Of a DNA stretch of 33,694 nucleotides, positions 4,417-11,787 are shown in pieces (position 1 is the stretch's first letter; each line of letters begins with the position of its first letter). A model generated the notes under the pieces. The model did no database searches. It saw nothing but the letters and a program-made list of their open reading frames with translations, and was not told the origin of the DNA. The position numbers and the translations under genes were made by a program. This DNA comes from a virus, in the IMG/VR virus record IMGVR_UViG_3300008261_000079, positions 1 through 33,694 of that record, one strand, 5' to 3'.

Positions 4417-4954
4417 TGTATTCAGCGTCTATAGCGTCATCTTCGTCTATAGGGTCATCATCATTAAGAAGCGGAGCTTTGACAAACTTTACCATGATTG
4501 CAGTCGGCTCAATCTTCTGACCATCAGAGGTAATGTCCATTTGATAAAGTCCAGATACCTTGCCTAGCTCAGACATGGCACTAATCTTATCACGGTTGCT
4601 AGAACTGTCAGCATCTACAATAGCAGCCAAGACTGGAATACGCTCAAGGTAAGACATTCTTGCCACTTCTCGCACCATCTCACGCTCTTTGCGTGTGCGT
4701 ATCTCCTTGCGTTCTAGGTCAAGTTGTTCTTTCTCACGCTTCTCAAGGTCACGTTGTTTTTGCTTCTCTCGAAACAGAATAGCTTTGTGTTCACGTTCTG
4801 CCTTGAGCTTAGCAATAAGTGCCTCTTCCTTGTCCTTCTCAATCATAGCAATGGCTTTTAGCCTACGGTTAGCCTTAGCCTTACCCTTGGGTCTACCCCT
4901 TGGTCGTTTGCCTTCTGCTAAGACCTCGTGCGGATTGATTACTTCGTCGCTCAT
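4403..4954 (-). CDS. terS: Terminase small subunit (probable)
   Basis: The 183-aa protein probably recognises phage DNA and regulates the large terminase encoded directly downstream with a 14-base overlap. The N-terminus holds an AT-hook-like element, KRPRGRPKGKAK, at about residues 16-27. Residues 35-100 form a long, highly charged coiled coil (KREKEQLDLERKEIRTRKER). The C-terminal part (residues 120-140, DKISAMSELGKVSGLYQM) resembles the central region of small terminases, and the tail is acidic. The helix-turn-helix seen in many small subunits is not obvious, so DNA contact may be through the AT-hook-like segment. The call rests mainly on position. Confidence 0.7.
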   Translation of the reverse strand: MSDEVINPHEVLAEGKRPRGRPKGKAKANRRLKAIAMIEKDKEEALIAKLKAEREHKAILFREKQKQRDLEKREKEQLDLERKEIRTRKEREMVREVARMSYLERIPVLAAIVDADSSSNRDKISAMSELGKVSGLYQMDITSDGQKIEPTAIMVKFVKAPLLNDDDPIDEDDAIDAEYNAQD

Positions 4955-7839: not shown

Positions 7840-8163
7840 ATGAACAATGCACTTACACTTAATCAACTTCAGGCGGTTAAAGCCGCTTACGCTAAGCATA
7901 GGTTTCGAAGCATCAGCACTAGGGCAAAGTTTGCTCTGGCGTTAGAAGGTCTTGTGGACCATCACGATATCCAAAGTGTACGCAATAAGCGTACAGGGAA
8001 CGTGGTGATGTACGCAAATTTGGGTGATACTTACAATACTACAATACTCTGCTACGTTAGTGATGCGTGCCCCAAAATGACTCACCCTGCAAATTGGAAG
8101 TATAAAATTCAGTTTAGACTAGGTTCGTGGGGTGACTTAGTTGAATCTGGACTTTACGAATAA
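7840..8163 (+). CDS. Early protein of unknown function, upstream of hammerhead 1
   Basis: The 107-aa soluble protein has a helical, basic N-terminal half (LQAVKAAYAKHRFRSISTR) and a beta-rich second half with aromatic residues. The start has an AAGGAAACA site. Its UAA stop codon forms the base of stem II of a hammerhead ribozyme. No known family is recognised. The gene at 10085-10411 has the same arrangement with a second ribozyme, but the two proteins are not obviously homologous. Confidence 0.7.
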   Translation: MNNALTLNQLQAVKAAYAKHRFRSISTRAKFALALEGLVDHHDIQSVRNKRTGNVVMYANLGDTYNTTILCYVSDACPKMTHPANWKYKIQFRLGSWGDLVESGLYE

Positions 8164-8218
8164 GACGAAACAGGGAATATTCCCTGTACAATGGTGATAC
8201 CATTGCTGATGAGTCTAA
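8161..8218 (+). ncRNA. Type II hammerhead ribozyme 1
   Basis: All core elements are present in type II order (stem II open). Stem II strand AGAC (8163-8166) is followed by GAAA (8167-8170). Stem III is CAGGGA/UCCCUG (8171-8176 and 8181-8186) with loop AUAU. U8187 pairs with the last A of GAAA, and A8188 is the residue 5' of the cleavage site (GUA, cut before C8189). Stem I is CAAUGG/CCAUUG (8189-8194 and 8200-8205) with loop UGAUA. The core CUGAUGA is at 8206-8212, then stem II strand GUCU (8213-8216). The conserved G10.1-C11.1 pair is present (G8213-C8166). The stop codon UAA (8161-8163) of the preceding gene is part of the element. The related copy at 10409 keeps the core and changes the stems in a compensatory way. 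Confidence 0.92.
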
Positions 8219-8237
8219 GTCAGAAACGGACATAAAC

Positions 8238-8468
8238 ATGAACCAGATAAACACAGATAAAGAGTGCGTACGCCTCTATTCATTCTCTAAAACCTACGGA
8301 CATACAACCGCTGAAGTATTCTTGCAAGCTGACGAGGACGGACGTATACAATACTTCGCGAGCCGTCAGGTAGACAGGAAAGCTGCACGGATTGCCCACT
8401 CAGTTAAGGTAAAAGCACGTGAGGTACGTGAACTTCTGCGAGTAGCCGTAGCCAGGGGGGCAGAATGA
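8238..8468 (+). CDS. Early protein, paralogue of 9823-10047
   Basis: The 76-aa protein shares a pattern with the 74-aa protein at 9823: a SKT-G-TTA core (YSFSKTYGHTTAEVFL against YTWSKTNGNTTATAYI), a central polar region, and a matching helical end (VKVKAREVRELLRVA against VEVTKAKLKELCGIA). This suggests a gene duplication inside the early operon. The fold looks like a beta hairpin followed by a helix. It is the first gene on the 3' product of hammerhead 1, starting 49 bases after the cut. Function unknown. Confidence 0.7.
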   Translation: MNQINTDKECVRLYSFSKTYGHTTAEVFLQADEDGRIQYFASRQVDRKAARIAHSVKVKAREVRELLRVAVARGAE

Positions 8469-8826: not shown

Positions 8827-8848
8827 GCTAGGGCTCCCAAGCCCTAGC
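8827..8848 (+). other. Nine-base-pair RNA hairpin without U tract
   Basis: GCTAGGGCT (8827-8835) and AGCCCTAGC (8840-8848) form a perfect 9-bp stem with a CCCA loop in the gap between two early genes. No run of U follows, so it is not a standard intrinsic terminator. It may stabilise RNA ends or be an RNase III-type processing site. Confidence 0.7.
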
Positions 8849-9822: not shown

Positions 9823-10047
9823 ATGAACAACATGAACAACCAACCAGAACGAATCGCCGTCATCAAGTTTTACACTTGGTCAAAAACCAACGGTAACACC
9901 ACCGCCACCGCCTACATCACGATTGATGGAGGGCAGCTTGTAAACACGGGTCAAGTGCAACACTCAGAGTTGCGGGTACTTGCATCAGTCGAAGTCACTA
10001 AAGCAAAGCTCAAAGAACTTTGCGGGATTGCAAAGAAAGGATATTGA
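9823..10047 (+). CDS. Early protein, paralogue of 8238-8468
   Basis: The 74-aa protein is related to the one at 8238-8468 through the shared SKT/GNTTA core and similar C-terminal helix. It follows directly on the strong promoter at 9780. Two starts are possible, ATG 9823 and ATG 9832; the second has the 10-12-base spacing from AGGA seen at other early genes, so the protein may begin MNNQPERIAV. Function unknown. Confidence 0.7.
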   Translation: MNNMNNQPERIAVIKFYTWSKTNGNTTATAYITIDGGQLVNTGQVQHSELRVLASVEVTKAKLKELCGIAKKGY

Positions 10048-10052
10048 CAACA

Positions 10053-10070
10053 GGGGAGGGTAACCTCCCC
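10053..10070 (+). other. RNA hairpin with GUAA tetraloop
   Basis: GGGGAGG (10053-10059) and CCTCCCC (10064-10070) form a 7-bp stem closed by GTAA, a GNRA-type tetraloop. It occupies most of the short gap between two early genes and lies just before an AGGACA ribosome site. No U tract follows. It could protect the end of a processed RNA or tune translation of the next gene. Confidence 0.7.
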
Positions 10071-10084
10071 AACAGGACACAACC

Positions 10085-10411
10085 ATGAACAACACAACAA
10101 CACAACACGACATTGAGCCATTGGCTTACACGACTAAGGTTAACCACCAGATTGGGGATGACGGGCTACCGTTCATTACCAGCATTGACTTCATGCCACT
10201 AGATGACATCAAGAGTTCTCACCCACGGGACGTATTCACGCTTCACTATCCACGGAAGCGTGGGATAGGTAGCGGTAGAATCCCTGGCTACATTGAAACG
10301 GGAACGTTCAACACGGGAGACCCACGAGCTATGCTAGGCAGGGCATTGGCTATGGGCGAAGCGTCCAAGATGCTTGCTACTCTCAATTACAATACGGACT
10401 TCAGCGTATAA
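10085..10411 (+). CDS. Early protein of unknown function, upstream of hammerhead 2
   Basis: The 108-aa protein starts after an AGGACACAACC leader. It has a Thr/Asn/Gln-rich start, a central beta-rich region (FTLHYPRKRGIGSGRIPGYI) and a C-terminal helix (DPRAMLGRALAMGEASKMLA). Its UAA stop codon forms the base of stem II of the second hammerhead ribozyme, exactly as for the gene at 7840-8163. No family is recognised. Confidence 0.7.
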   Translation: MNNTTTQHDIEPLAYTTKVNHQIGDDGLPFITSIDFMPLDDIKSSHPRDVFTLHYPRKRGIGSGRIPGYIETGTFNTGDPRAMLGRALAMGEASKMLATLNYNTDFSV

Positions 10412-10466
10412 GGCGAAACGGGGAGCAATCCCCGTCAGGTGGTAAAGCCGCCTCTGACGAGCCTAG
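10409..10466 (+). ncRNA. Type II hammerhead ribozyme 2
   Basis: Same architecture as the copy at 8161. Stem II strand AGGC (10411-10414) precedes GAAA (10415-10418). Stem III is CGGGGA/UCCCCG (10419-10424 and 10429-10434) with a GCAA tetraloop. U10435 and C10436 form the GUC cleavage triplet, cut before A10437. Stem I is AGGUGG/CCGCCU (10437-10442 and 10448-10453) with loop UAAAG. The core CUGACGA is at 10454-10460, then stem II strand GCCU (10461-10464). Compared with copy 1, stem II changes A-U to G-C, stem III changes A-U to G-C, and stem I is rewritten while still paired. The core varies only at the position that is free to vary. This covariation strongly supports a functional RNA. Confidence 0.93.
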
Positions 10467-10488
10467 ACCGTCAGCTAAGGAACACAAC

Positions 10489-10905
10489 ATGAAACAAACA
10501 GAACCAACCATTGACCTCACCATGAGGACGCCAATCATCAGCAGCGACAAAGAAGTTTTCACGAACAAGCGGGACTTCATCAACCATTGCTTGGAAGTTA
10601 TGGGGCATCAGCGTGGGGTCGAAGTCAAATCCCACAAGTTCAGCAAGGACACGACTGTTTACGAGCTGTTTTACCATTCTTTTGCAAATAGCAAGCATAT
10701 CTGGATGTCATCCTTCGTAAGCGAACAAGACCTATGGGACAGGTCAGAGCGTGAGGCATTGCGTATCCTCAATGAACTGAATTGCAATCGGTCTTACGAT
10801 ACCCAATACACTCTGGAGGACGTCATTGCATCAGCTAAGGCAGGAGAGGATGTCAGCTATTGGCAAGACCTCTTAGATACATTGAACGCAAGCGTAAAGT
10901 TGTGA
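10489..10905 (+). CDS. Early protein of unknown function
   Basis: The 138-aa soluble, helical protein starts 52 bases after the cut site of hammerhead 2, with an AAGGAACA site. It begins with a polar stretch and continues with helices such as KRDFINHCLEVMGHQRG and SEREALRILNELNC. The TTGAAC of the next promoter lies in its last codons. No family is recognised. Confidence 0.65.
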   Translation: MKQTEPTIDLTMRTPIISSDKEVFTNKRDFINHCLEVMGHQRGVEVKSHKFSKDTTVYELFYHSFANSKHIWMSSFVSEQDLWDRSEREALRILNELNCNRSYDTQYTLEDVIASAKAGEDVSYWQDLLDTLNASVKL

Positions 10906-10974: not shown

Positions 10975-11787
10975 ATGGATAACTTAAACGCTTCGGCGTC
11001 ACTCAAAACTACATCTCTTTTGGGCTGGTATAAATGGTACTCCCGTGATTTCTGGGCATCCATGACCGTTCGCTCAATGTCCCCAATAGCTAGAAGCATT
11101 TACCGTGACTTGCTAGACATTCAATGGGAGCATGGGCAACTACTTCCAAAACCTAGACTACTTCGGGCGTTGGGCTGGAGTGAATCCGAATGGGAAGAAT
11201 TCGAGCCATACCTTCAGGAATGTTTTCCCAATGGCATCAACCCCAAGATGGACGAGATACGCCAACAAGCAATAGAAGACCGTGAACGACAAGCGGAGAA
11301 AGGTAGAAAGTCAGCAGAAGCAAGGGCGAGAATTAAAGAGTTTGGGAATGAACCAACCACGATTCAACCACGGTTCAACCACGGTTCAACAGATGTTCAA
11401 CGGGTGTTCAACCAAACAGAAACAGAAACAGAAACAGAAACAGAAACAGAAACAGAAACATATAAAAGATTTATAAAACCATCGCAAAGCGAGGTCGAAG
11501 AGTATCTTGTTGAAAGAAGATGGAAGAACCCTGAGCGAAAGGCAGAACAGTTTATAAGCCACTATGAATCTAAAGGGTGGAAGATTGGTAAAGCCAAAAT
11601 GAAAAGCTGGAGGTCAGCGGTTATCACTTGGGAAGGTCGAATGACTGATGACGACTTTGTACCCAAGCCTAAACCCAAAGAACCCATTGAGGGAATTGAC
11701 TTCCAGATACTACCAAGTGGACTAGAAGTTACACTAGATGGGCGTCTATGGTGCATTGATACTTGGAGAAAAGAGAATGGATTATAA
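10975..11787 (+). CDS. Replication initiator / helicase loader (DUF1376 plus DnaT-like)
   Basis: The 270-aa protein has two recognisable parts. Residues 15-95 match the DUF1376 type found in phage replication genes (WYSRDFWASM, ARSIYRDLLDIQWEHGQLLP). Residues 165-222 resemble the C-terminal DnaT/replication-protein region (FISHYESKGWKIGKAKMKSW). A basic helix (100-120) and a low-complexity linker (125-163, ending in seven Thr-Glu pairs) join them. By analogy with lambda O or DnaT it should bind the origin and help load the DnaB-like helicase encoded directly downstream. The linker DNA carries iterons and hexamer repeats that look like the origin itself. The helicase ATG lies 11 bases before its stop. 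Confidence 0.8.
   Translation: MDNLNASASLKTTSLLGWYKWYSRDFWASMTVRSMSPIARSIYRDLLDIQWEHGQLLPKPRLLRALGWSESEWEEFEPYLQECFPNGINPKMDEIRQQAIEDRERQAEKGRKSAEARARIKEFGNEPTTIQPRFNHGSTDVQRVFNQTETETETETETETETYKRFIKPSQSEVEEYLVERRWKNPERKAEQFISHYESKGWKIGKAKMKSWRSAVITWEGRMTDDDFVPKPKPKEPIEGIDFQILPSGLEVTLDGRLWCIDTWRKENGL
11361..11412 (+). repeat. Origin-like iterons, five copies at 11-bp spacing
   Basis: TTCAAC occurs at 11363, 11374, 11385, 11396 and 11407, each exactly 11 bp from the next, inside longer units close to GGTTCAACCAC. Eleven is not a multiple of three, so the encoded peptide (IQPRFNHGSTDVQRVFNQ) is not repetitive; the repeat is kept as DNA. The position inside the initiator gene, between its two domains, matches lambda ori within gene O. 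I predict these are the initiator binding sites. Confidence 0.75.
11416..11460 (+). repeat. CAGAAA hexamer array next to the iterons
   Basis: Seven consecutive copies of the hexamer CAGAAA run from 11417 to 11458. They encode (Thr-Glu)7 in the linker of the initiator. Directly after them comes an A+T-rich stretch (11460-11479, TATAAAAGATTTATAAAA). The strand asymmetry and A+T richness next to the iterons fit a DNA-unwinding element. The array may also vary in copy number by slippage; changes of whole hexamers keep the reading frame. Confidence 0.8.

Follow-up and report, generated by a model that had tools for sequence, protein, structure and literature searches.

The space between two genes of a 33,694-base IMG/VR phage record (analysed over its full length and referred to here as the window) carries a type II hammerhead ribozyme whose downstream tail is complementary to the ribozyme's own catalytic core. 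The hammerhead is almost certainly genuine on the evidence of its sequence, and the core-tail pairing, which covaries among viral relatives, is very probably both real and under selection. The explanation that we prefer, and to which we give about an even chance of being correct, is that the element is a self-limiting ribozyme in which the core-tail hairpin would act as a brake and would also cap the downstream mRNA after the cut. The features of this element (copy 2) and of a second hammerhead in the window (copy 1) are listed here.

10085..10411, + strand: upstream gene, 108 aa, without a family match; its end falls within copy 2 stem II
10411..10464, + strand: type II hammerhead ribozyme, copy 2; 54.6 bits, E=2.3e-18 (covariance model R1)
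10411..10414, + strand: copy 2 stem II, 5′ strand AGGC; its first A is the final base of the TAA stop codon at 10409-10411
10415..10418, + strand: copy 2 core GAAA (G12 A13 A14 A15.1)
10418..10435, + strand: copy 2 stem III hairpin ACGGGGA-GCAA-UCCCCGU, strands 10418-10424 and 10429-10435, with a GCAA (GNRA) loop; predicted to stay at the 3′ end of the upstream product
10436..10437, + strand: copy 2 predicted cleavage site, between C10436 and A10437; H17 position in the aligned core, GUC triplet
10437..10453, + strand: copy 2 stem I hairpin AGGUGG-UAAAG-CCGCCU, 6 bp, strands 10437-10442 and 10448-10453, loop UAAAG; predicted 5′ end of the downstream product
10454..10460, + strand: copy 2 core CUGACGA (C3-A9), with N7 = C10458
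10461..10464, + strand: copy 2 stem II, 3′ strand GCCU, pairing A10411-C10414 with G10461-U10464
10469..10474, + strand: copy 2 tail CGUCAG, complement of core 10454-10459, forming an alternative core-tail hairpin (fold prediction and family covariation)
10489..10905, + strand: downstream gene, 138 aa, without a family match
8163..8216, + strand: type II hammerhead ribozyme, copy 1, predicted cut after A8188; 45.6 bits, E=7.5e-15
8219..8223, + strand: copy 1 tail GUCAG, complement of core CUGAU 8206-8210 with one U·G wobble (fold prediction)

Both copies have perfect type II cores, with CUGANGA and GAAA segments, the A15.1-U16.1 and G10.1-C11.1 pairs and an H nucleotide at position 17, and both have the three-stem layout in which stem II is open and loops close stems I and III. 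They share this consensus core and circular permutation with the type II hammerheads described from phages and prophages and with Rfam family RF02276 (Hammerhead_II) (Perreault et al. 2011, PMC3088659). A preliminary description of this DNA had proposed that copy 2 is a type II hammerhead with a GUC cleavage triplet and a GNRA loop, and that its stems are rewritten relative to copy 1 while staying paired; all of this is borne out by the complete structure, in which A-U pairs of copy 1 are replaced by G-C pairs in stems II and III, and stem I differs in sequence, with every position still paired. The claimed identity of placement also holds, the stop codons ending at 8163 and 10411 and the predicted cuts following at 8188 and 10436, 25 nt later in both copies, with 49 nt (copy 1) and 52 nt (copy 2) from the cut to the next ATG. 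To this we add that in both copies the last A of a TAA stop codon doubles as the first base of stem II. Sequence, covariation and genomic context thus support two genuine hammerheads placed for cutting a polycistronic mRNA between genes.

A chance origin, already thought improbable in the preliminary description, is made more so by several observations. Strict descriptor matches in the window are exactly copies 1 and 2, and 9401 dinucleotide-preserving shuffles gave only 14 weak matches at loose thresholds, none with the observed stem lengths or of comparable strength. Covariance model R1 was built from 22 ungapped viral hammerhead relatives, with the window excluded, and its runner-up place in the window scores just 9.4 bits. 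In the alignment of these 22 relatives both members vary in 12 of the 15 pairs, every cell (100%) is paired, and the stem covariation score is 0.859 as against 0.192 when shuffled. An IMG/VR scan with the pattern TAAGNCGAAACN{20,50}CTGANGAGNCT returned at least 119 stretches; among the matches listed, 120 of 139 fold as type II hammerheads. Further IMG/VR scans (two with no stop codon specified and one for the tail motif), together with later fetches, brought the collection to 335 distinct hammerheads. The earliest sequence sets were partly selected (for TAAG or RTCAG), and the key claims were therefore rechecked on sets free of these selections and against a YTCAG control; kinship among the sequences was handled by k-mer clustering, which removes relatedness only in part. 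In the scans not selected for a stop codon most cases nonetheless have an upstream stop 5-11 nt before GAAA, so this placement is general and not peculiar to this phage. Some viral loci carry long series of these elements, with five or six type II hammerheads between successive genes in L031, L064, L082 and L095, and a maximum in the set of nine in one locus.

Two IMG/VR phages (L430 and L429) have a terminase 88% identical to that of the window. In L430 a homologue of window gene 9823-10047 is immediately followed by a minus-strand hammerhead at 4471-4417 (E=5.4e-14), the core and tail of which read CUGAUG/CAUCAG where copy 2 has CUGACG/CGUCAG, a compensatory change. The L429 record contains neither a homologue of the 9823-10047 gene nor a hammerhead. 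The preliminary description had made its case depend on related phages not keeping the genes while losing the core; L430, in which a hammerhead still adjoins a member of this small family of genes, agrees with this, and in L429 gene and hammerhead are both absent. Searches through the DnaB helicase gave no relatives. Among named phages none were found with the DNA or with the downstream protein as query, and the terminase has only distant matches there. Unusually for the core, A9 and stem II of the L430 hammerhead (4417-4471, minus strand) are separated by an additional U, and no precedent for an extra nucleotide after A9 was found in the open-access literature.

Even with permissive E-values, Rfam reported no hammerhead family in the window, and the window copies fall below the RF02276 gathering score (37 bits). 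In 15 related loci, too, only eight hammerheads pass RF02276, a minority of the descriptor matches there. Because the model covers the form with a short stem I poorly, the missing match is no argument against a hammerhead. The short-stem-I form is largely missed in L003, L020, L077, L110 and others, and many compact type II hammerheads thus escape the current Rfam model.

The feature that sets these elements apart is the tail. In copy 2 the core segment CUGACG (10454-10459) can pair with CGUCAG (10469-10474) over 6 bp; the corresponding hairpin of copy 1 has just 5 bp with a terminal wobble, and that of L430 has 6 bp, so that all three pair C3 to N7 over at least 5 bp with a covarying partner for N7. 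Among the 335 hammerheads, 93 have a core complement of at least five bases within 22 nt after stem II, as against 10.3 expected from shuffled tails, and when the TCAG-selected set is left out the count is 42 of 243 against 7.6 expected. No such excess was found upstream or farther downstream, where core complementarity in the 335 hammerheads is at or below expectation. The non-redundant counts of N7 and its partner are 28 C:G, 2 C:A, 31 U:A and 7 U:G (Fisher p=2e-10), five loci hold both C:G and U:A copies, and at L184 N7 is an A together with UUCAG. The mutual information between N7 and the tail peaks only at the base facing N7, at 0.344 bits compared with a shuffle maximum of 0.135. A control across all of IMG/VR gave 109 matches to RTCAG, which has a purine at the N7-partner position, and 15 to YTCAG, which has a pyrimidine. 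The first sequence set suggested the idea of the tail, which was then put to the test in additional sets that overlap in part, and by the control scan. Among named bacterial hosts the core-tail pattern was found in 38 genome stretches, and fold-confirmed hammerheads at one locus only (L479, in a Synergistaceae MAG). The preliminary description had overlooked the tail, which complicates its picture, the blocked form being the predicted lowest-energy one.

The core-tail hairpin is mutually exclusive with stem II and with the catalytic fold, and with the tail included the form that it blocks has the lowest predicted energy for both leaders in the window and for that of L430. The fragments used for the window leaders started one base inside stem II, whereas the energy comparison was made with complete stems, giving −6.8 kcal/mol for the hairpin and −4.1 for stem II in copy 2, and −4.7 and −2.0 kcal/mol in copy 1. 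Median secondary-structure energies are −6.2 kcal/mol for the hairpin and −4.1 for stem II, and before cleavage the hairpin surpasses stem II in predicted stability in 83 of 103 cases; nearest-neighbour energies, however, take no account of what tertiary contacts and the core add to hammerhead stability, so that the active fold may yet prevail until the cut is made. The stabilities of stem II and hairpin are weakly correlated (rho 0.30, p=0.002), which could reflect base composition. In the predicted 3′ product the hairpin is kept in 102 of 103 cases, and in 96 of 103 the first nucleotide is part of a pair; no gap separates the hairpin from stem I, and its median distance to the ATG that follows is 21 nt.

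The use of the tail differs with the length of stem I. In the unbiased sets the core-tail hairpin is found in 10 of 46 hammerheads with a stem I of 19 nt or less, where 1.6 are expected, and in none of 40 with a longer one. A complement of at least five bases between loop I and the tail occurs in 44 of 89 hammerheads with a long stem I, compared with 6 of 246 shorter ones. The loop I-tail pseudoknot belongs to the type II consensus and is known to support activity, and many of the remaining type II hammerheads use other contacts or perhaps none (PMC3088659). Unlike that consensus, the window copies have no loop I-tail pseudoknot of at least four bases on inspection (at most three bases in either copy), and the tail is instead complementary to the catalytic core. 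Because the stem I classes split between the two uses, it appears that the tail either supports the active fold, through the pseudoknot, or opposes it, through core pairing. Only about 20-30% of the sampled short-stem-I hammerheads have a core-complementary tail, which is thus not essential to that class.

We picture these elements as working in the following way. The hammerhead, positioned between neighbouring genes of an operon, would cut the mRNA after C10436, a step that its sequence and the biochemistry of hammerheads make probable. Because it is of type II, its secondary structure would place a hairpin on each of the ends made by the cut, stem III sealing the upstream message at its 3′ end, 25 nt past its stop codon, and stem I beginning the downstream message with no loose 5′ nucleotides, and these hairpins may be protective. 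As the polymerase advances, folding and cutting would have to be completed quickly, ahead of the emergence of the tail, whose hairpin with the core would then lock the ribozyme off and so make cutting partial or conditional. In cleaved RNA this hairpin could stack behind stem I and cap the downstream leader ahead of the Shine-Dalgarno sequence. That the hairpin acts as a brake before cleavage is favoured, by a little, because short-stem-I tails pair with the core and long-stem-I tails with loop I, where they support activity; the weak correlation between the stabilities of stem II and hairpin points the same way. It is a more tentative suggestion, rather less probable than the brake itself, that phage type II hammerheads include a widespread self-switching class, in which a conserved tail competes for the catalytic core and sets the fraction of each message cut during transcription, possibly under the influence of the speed of the polymerase, of upstream-gene translation or of a trans-acting factor. 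In that case the element would represent a naturally occurring, autoinhibited self-cleaving ribozyme that serves differential gene expression within an operon.

The most substantial competitor, which we consider possible and yet the less probable choice, is that the hairpin serves the product only: cutting would be efficient, and the hairpin would form after the upstream product leaves, preventing religation and giving the downstream mRNA a fully structured 5′-OH end by the ribosome-binding site. The near-universal retention of the hairpin in the predicted 3′ product, the pairing of the first nucleotide of that product in most cases, the position of the hairpin directly against stem I and its proximity to the ATG all fit such a role. 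However, a cap needs no bases from the catalytic core, the use of which must compete with catalysis, and the hairpin is predicted to be more stable than stem II already before cleavage. Plain operon processing, with the complementarity of the window tail being incidental, has a precedent in the proposal of Perreault et al. 2011 (PMC3088659), and would account for the absence of the tail from most sampled type II hammerheads and for its weak pairing in copy 1; it is made unlikely by the family-wide covariation, the YTCAG control and the compensatory change in L430.

Two further readings we regard as highly improbable. A DNA-binding site (operator) or another DNA-level signal might be read into the inverted repeat CTGACG...CGTCAG, which forms a short dyad within an early phage region, but its spacing varies continuously, U·G wobbles are tolerated and its position is tied to the ribozyme; we rejected the DNA dyad on the grounds of the variable spacing and the wobble pairs. 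An RNA hairpin is favoured by the distance between N7 and its partner, which in nearly every case falls at varying values between 3 and 14 nt. The short 4-bp stem II, and the recognition of these hammerheads from sequence alone, could be taken to indicate inactive relics or chance look-alikes, to which the perfect cores, E-values of 1e-15 or lower and the conservation in L430 with a compensatory change are opposed. The self-limiting ribozyme remains our preferred explanation. The tail also gives a specific handle on the job of the phage hammerheads reported in 2011, in the form of a covarying alternative core pairing tied to the short-stem-I class, and since N7 is free in the catalytic consensus, a tail mutation combined with a compensatory N7 mutation can separate catalysis from control.

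Mutually exclusive hairpins are familiar from attenuators and riboswitches, and the two exclusive folds described here could similarly be decided during transcription; unlike in those systems, self-cleavage would be the output, and neither a ligand nor a sensor domain was found. Engineered ribozyme insulators such as RiboJ, and hairpin-flanked cleavage sites in synthetic operons, use self-cleavage followed by a hairpin before the Shine-Dalgarno sequence to create a defined, structured 5′ leader. The phage element resembles the RiboJ insulators in its predicted self-cleavage and in the hairpin ahead of the Shine-Dalgarno sequence, and differs from them in that it is natural and of type II, and in that the downstream hairpin reuses the catalytic core itself.

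The literature on natural type II hammerheads reports that they are common in bacteria, that prophages often have several around single genes, that processing of long phage transcripts is a suggested role and that cleavage has been shown for some arrays (Perreault et al. 2011, PMC3088659). The window resembles those phage and prophage elements in having several copies flanking single genes, with the same proposed processing of long transcripts. The preliminary description had suggested that a deliberate system divides the early mRNA into units by cutting; the placement between genes agrees with this, but since transcript processing was in essence proposed in 2011 (PMC3088659), the idea is a known one and the window a new member. 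No mention of a core-tail alternative in type II hammerheads was found in the available portions of PMC3088659 or in other open-access literature, and the core-complementary tail appears to be new.

The surroundings of the hammerheads show several other features. A small gene family (about 75 aa, with the motif FYTWSKTNGHTT and no Pfam match) is found beside hammerheads, at 8238-8468 and 9823-10047 in the window, which are 33% identical, and at 4472-4711 in L430. Two strong plain hairpins without a hammerhead core are present in intergenic positions of the same operon, each shortly after a stop codon, at 8828-8847 (CTAGGGCT-CCCA-AGCCCTAG) and at 10053-10070 (GGGGAGG-GTAA-CCTCCCC). The latter resembles stem III of the L430 hammerhead, which lies after the homologous gene, and could thus be what remains of a hammerhead. 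Promoter and terminator scans of the region gave no excess over shuffles and no coding-strand terminator at the ribozymes. Finally, gene 10975-11787 contains a tandem GAAACA repeat (11418-11460) that encodes a Thr-Glu run.
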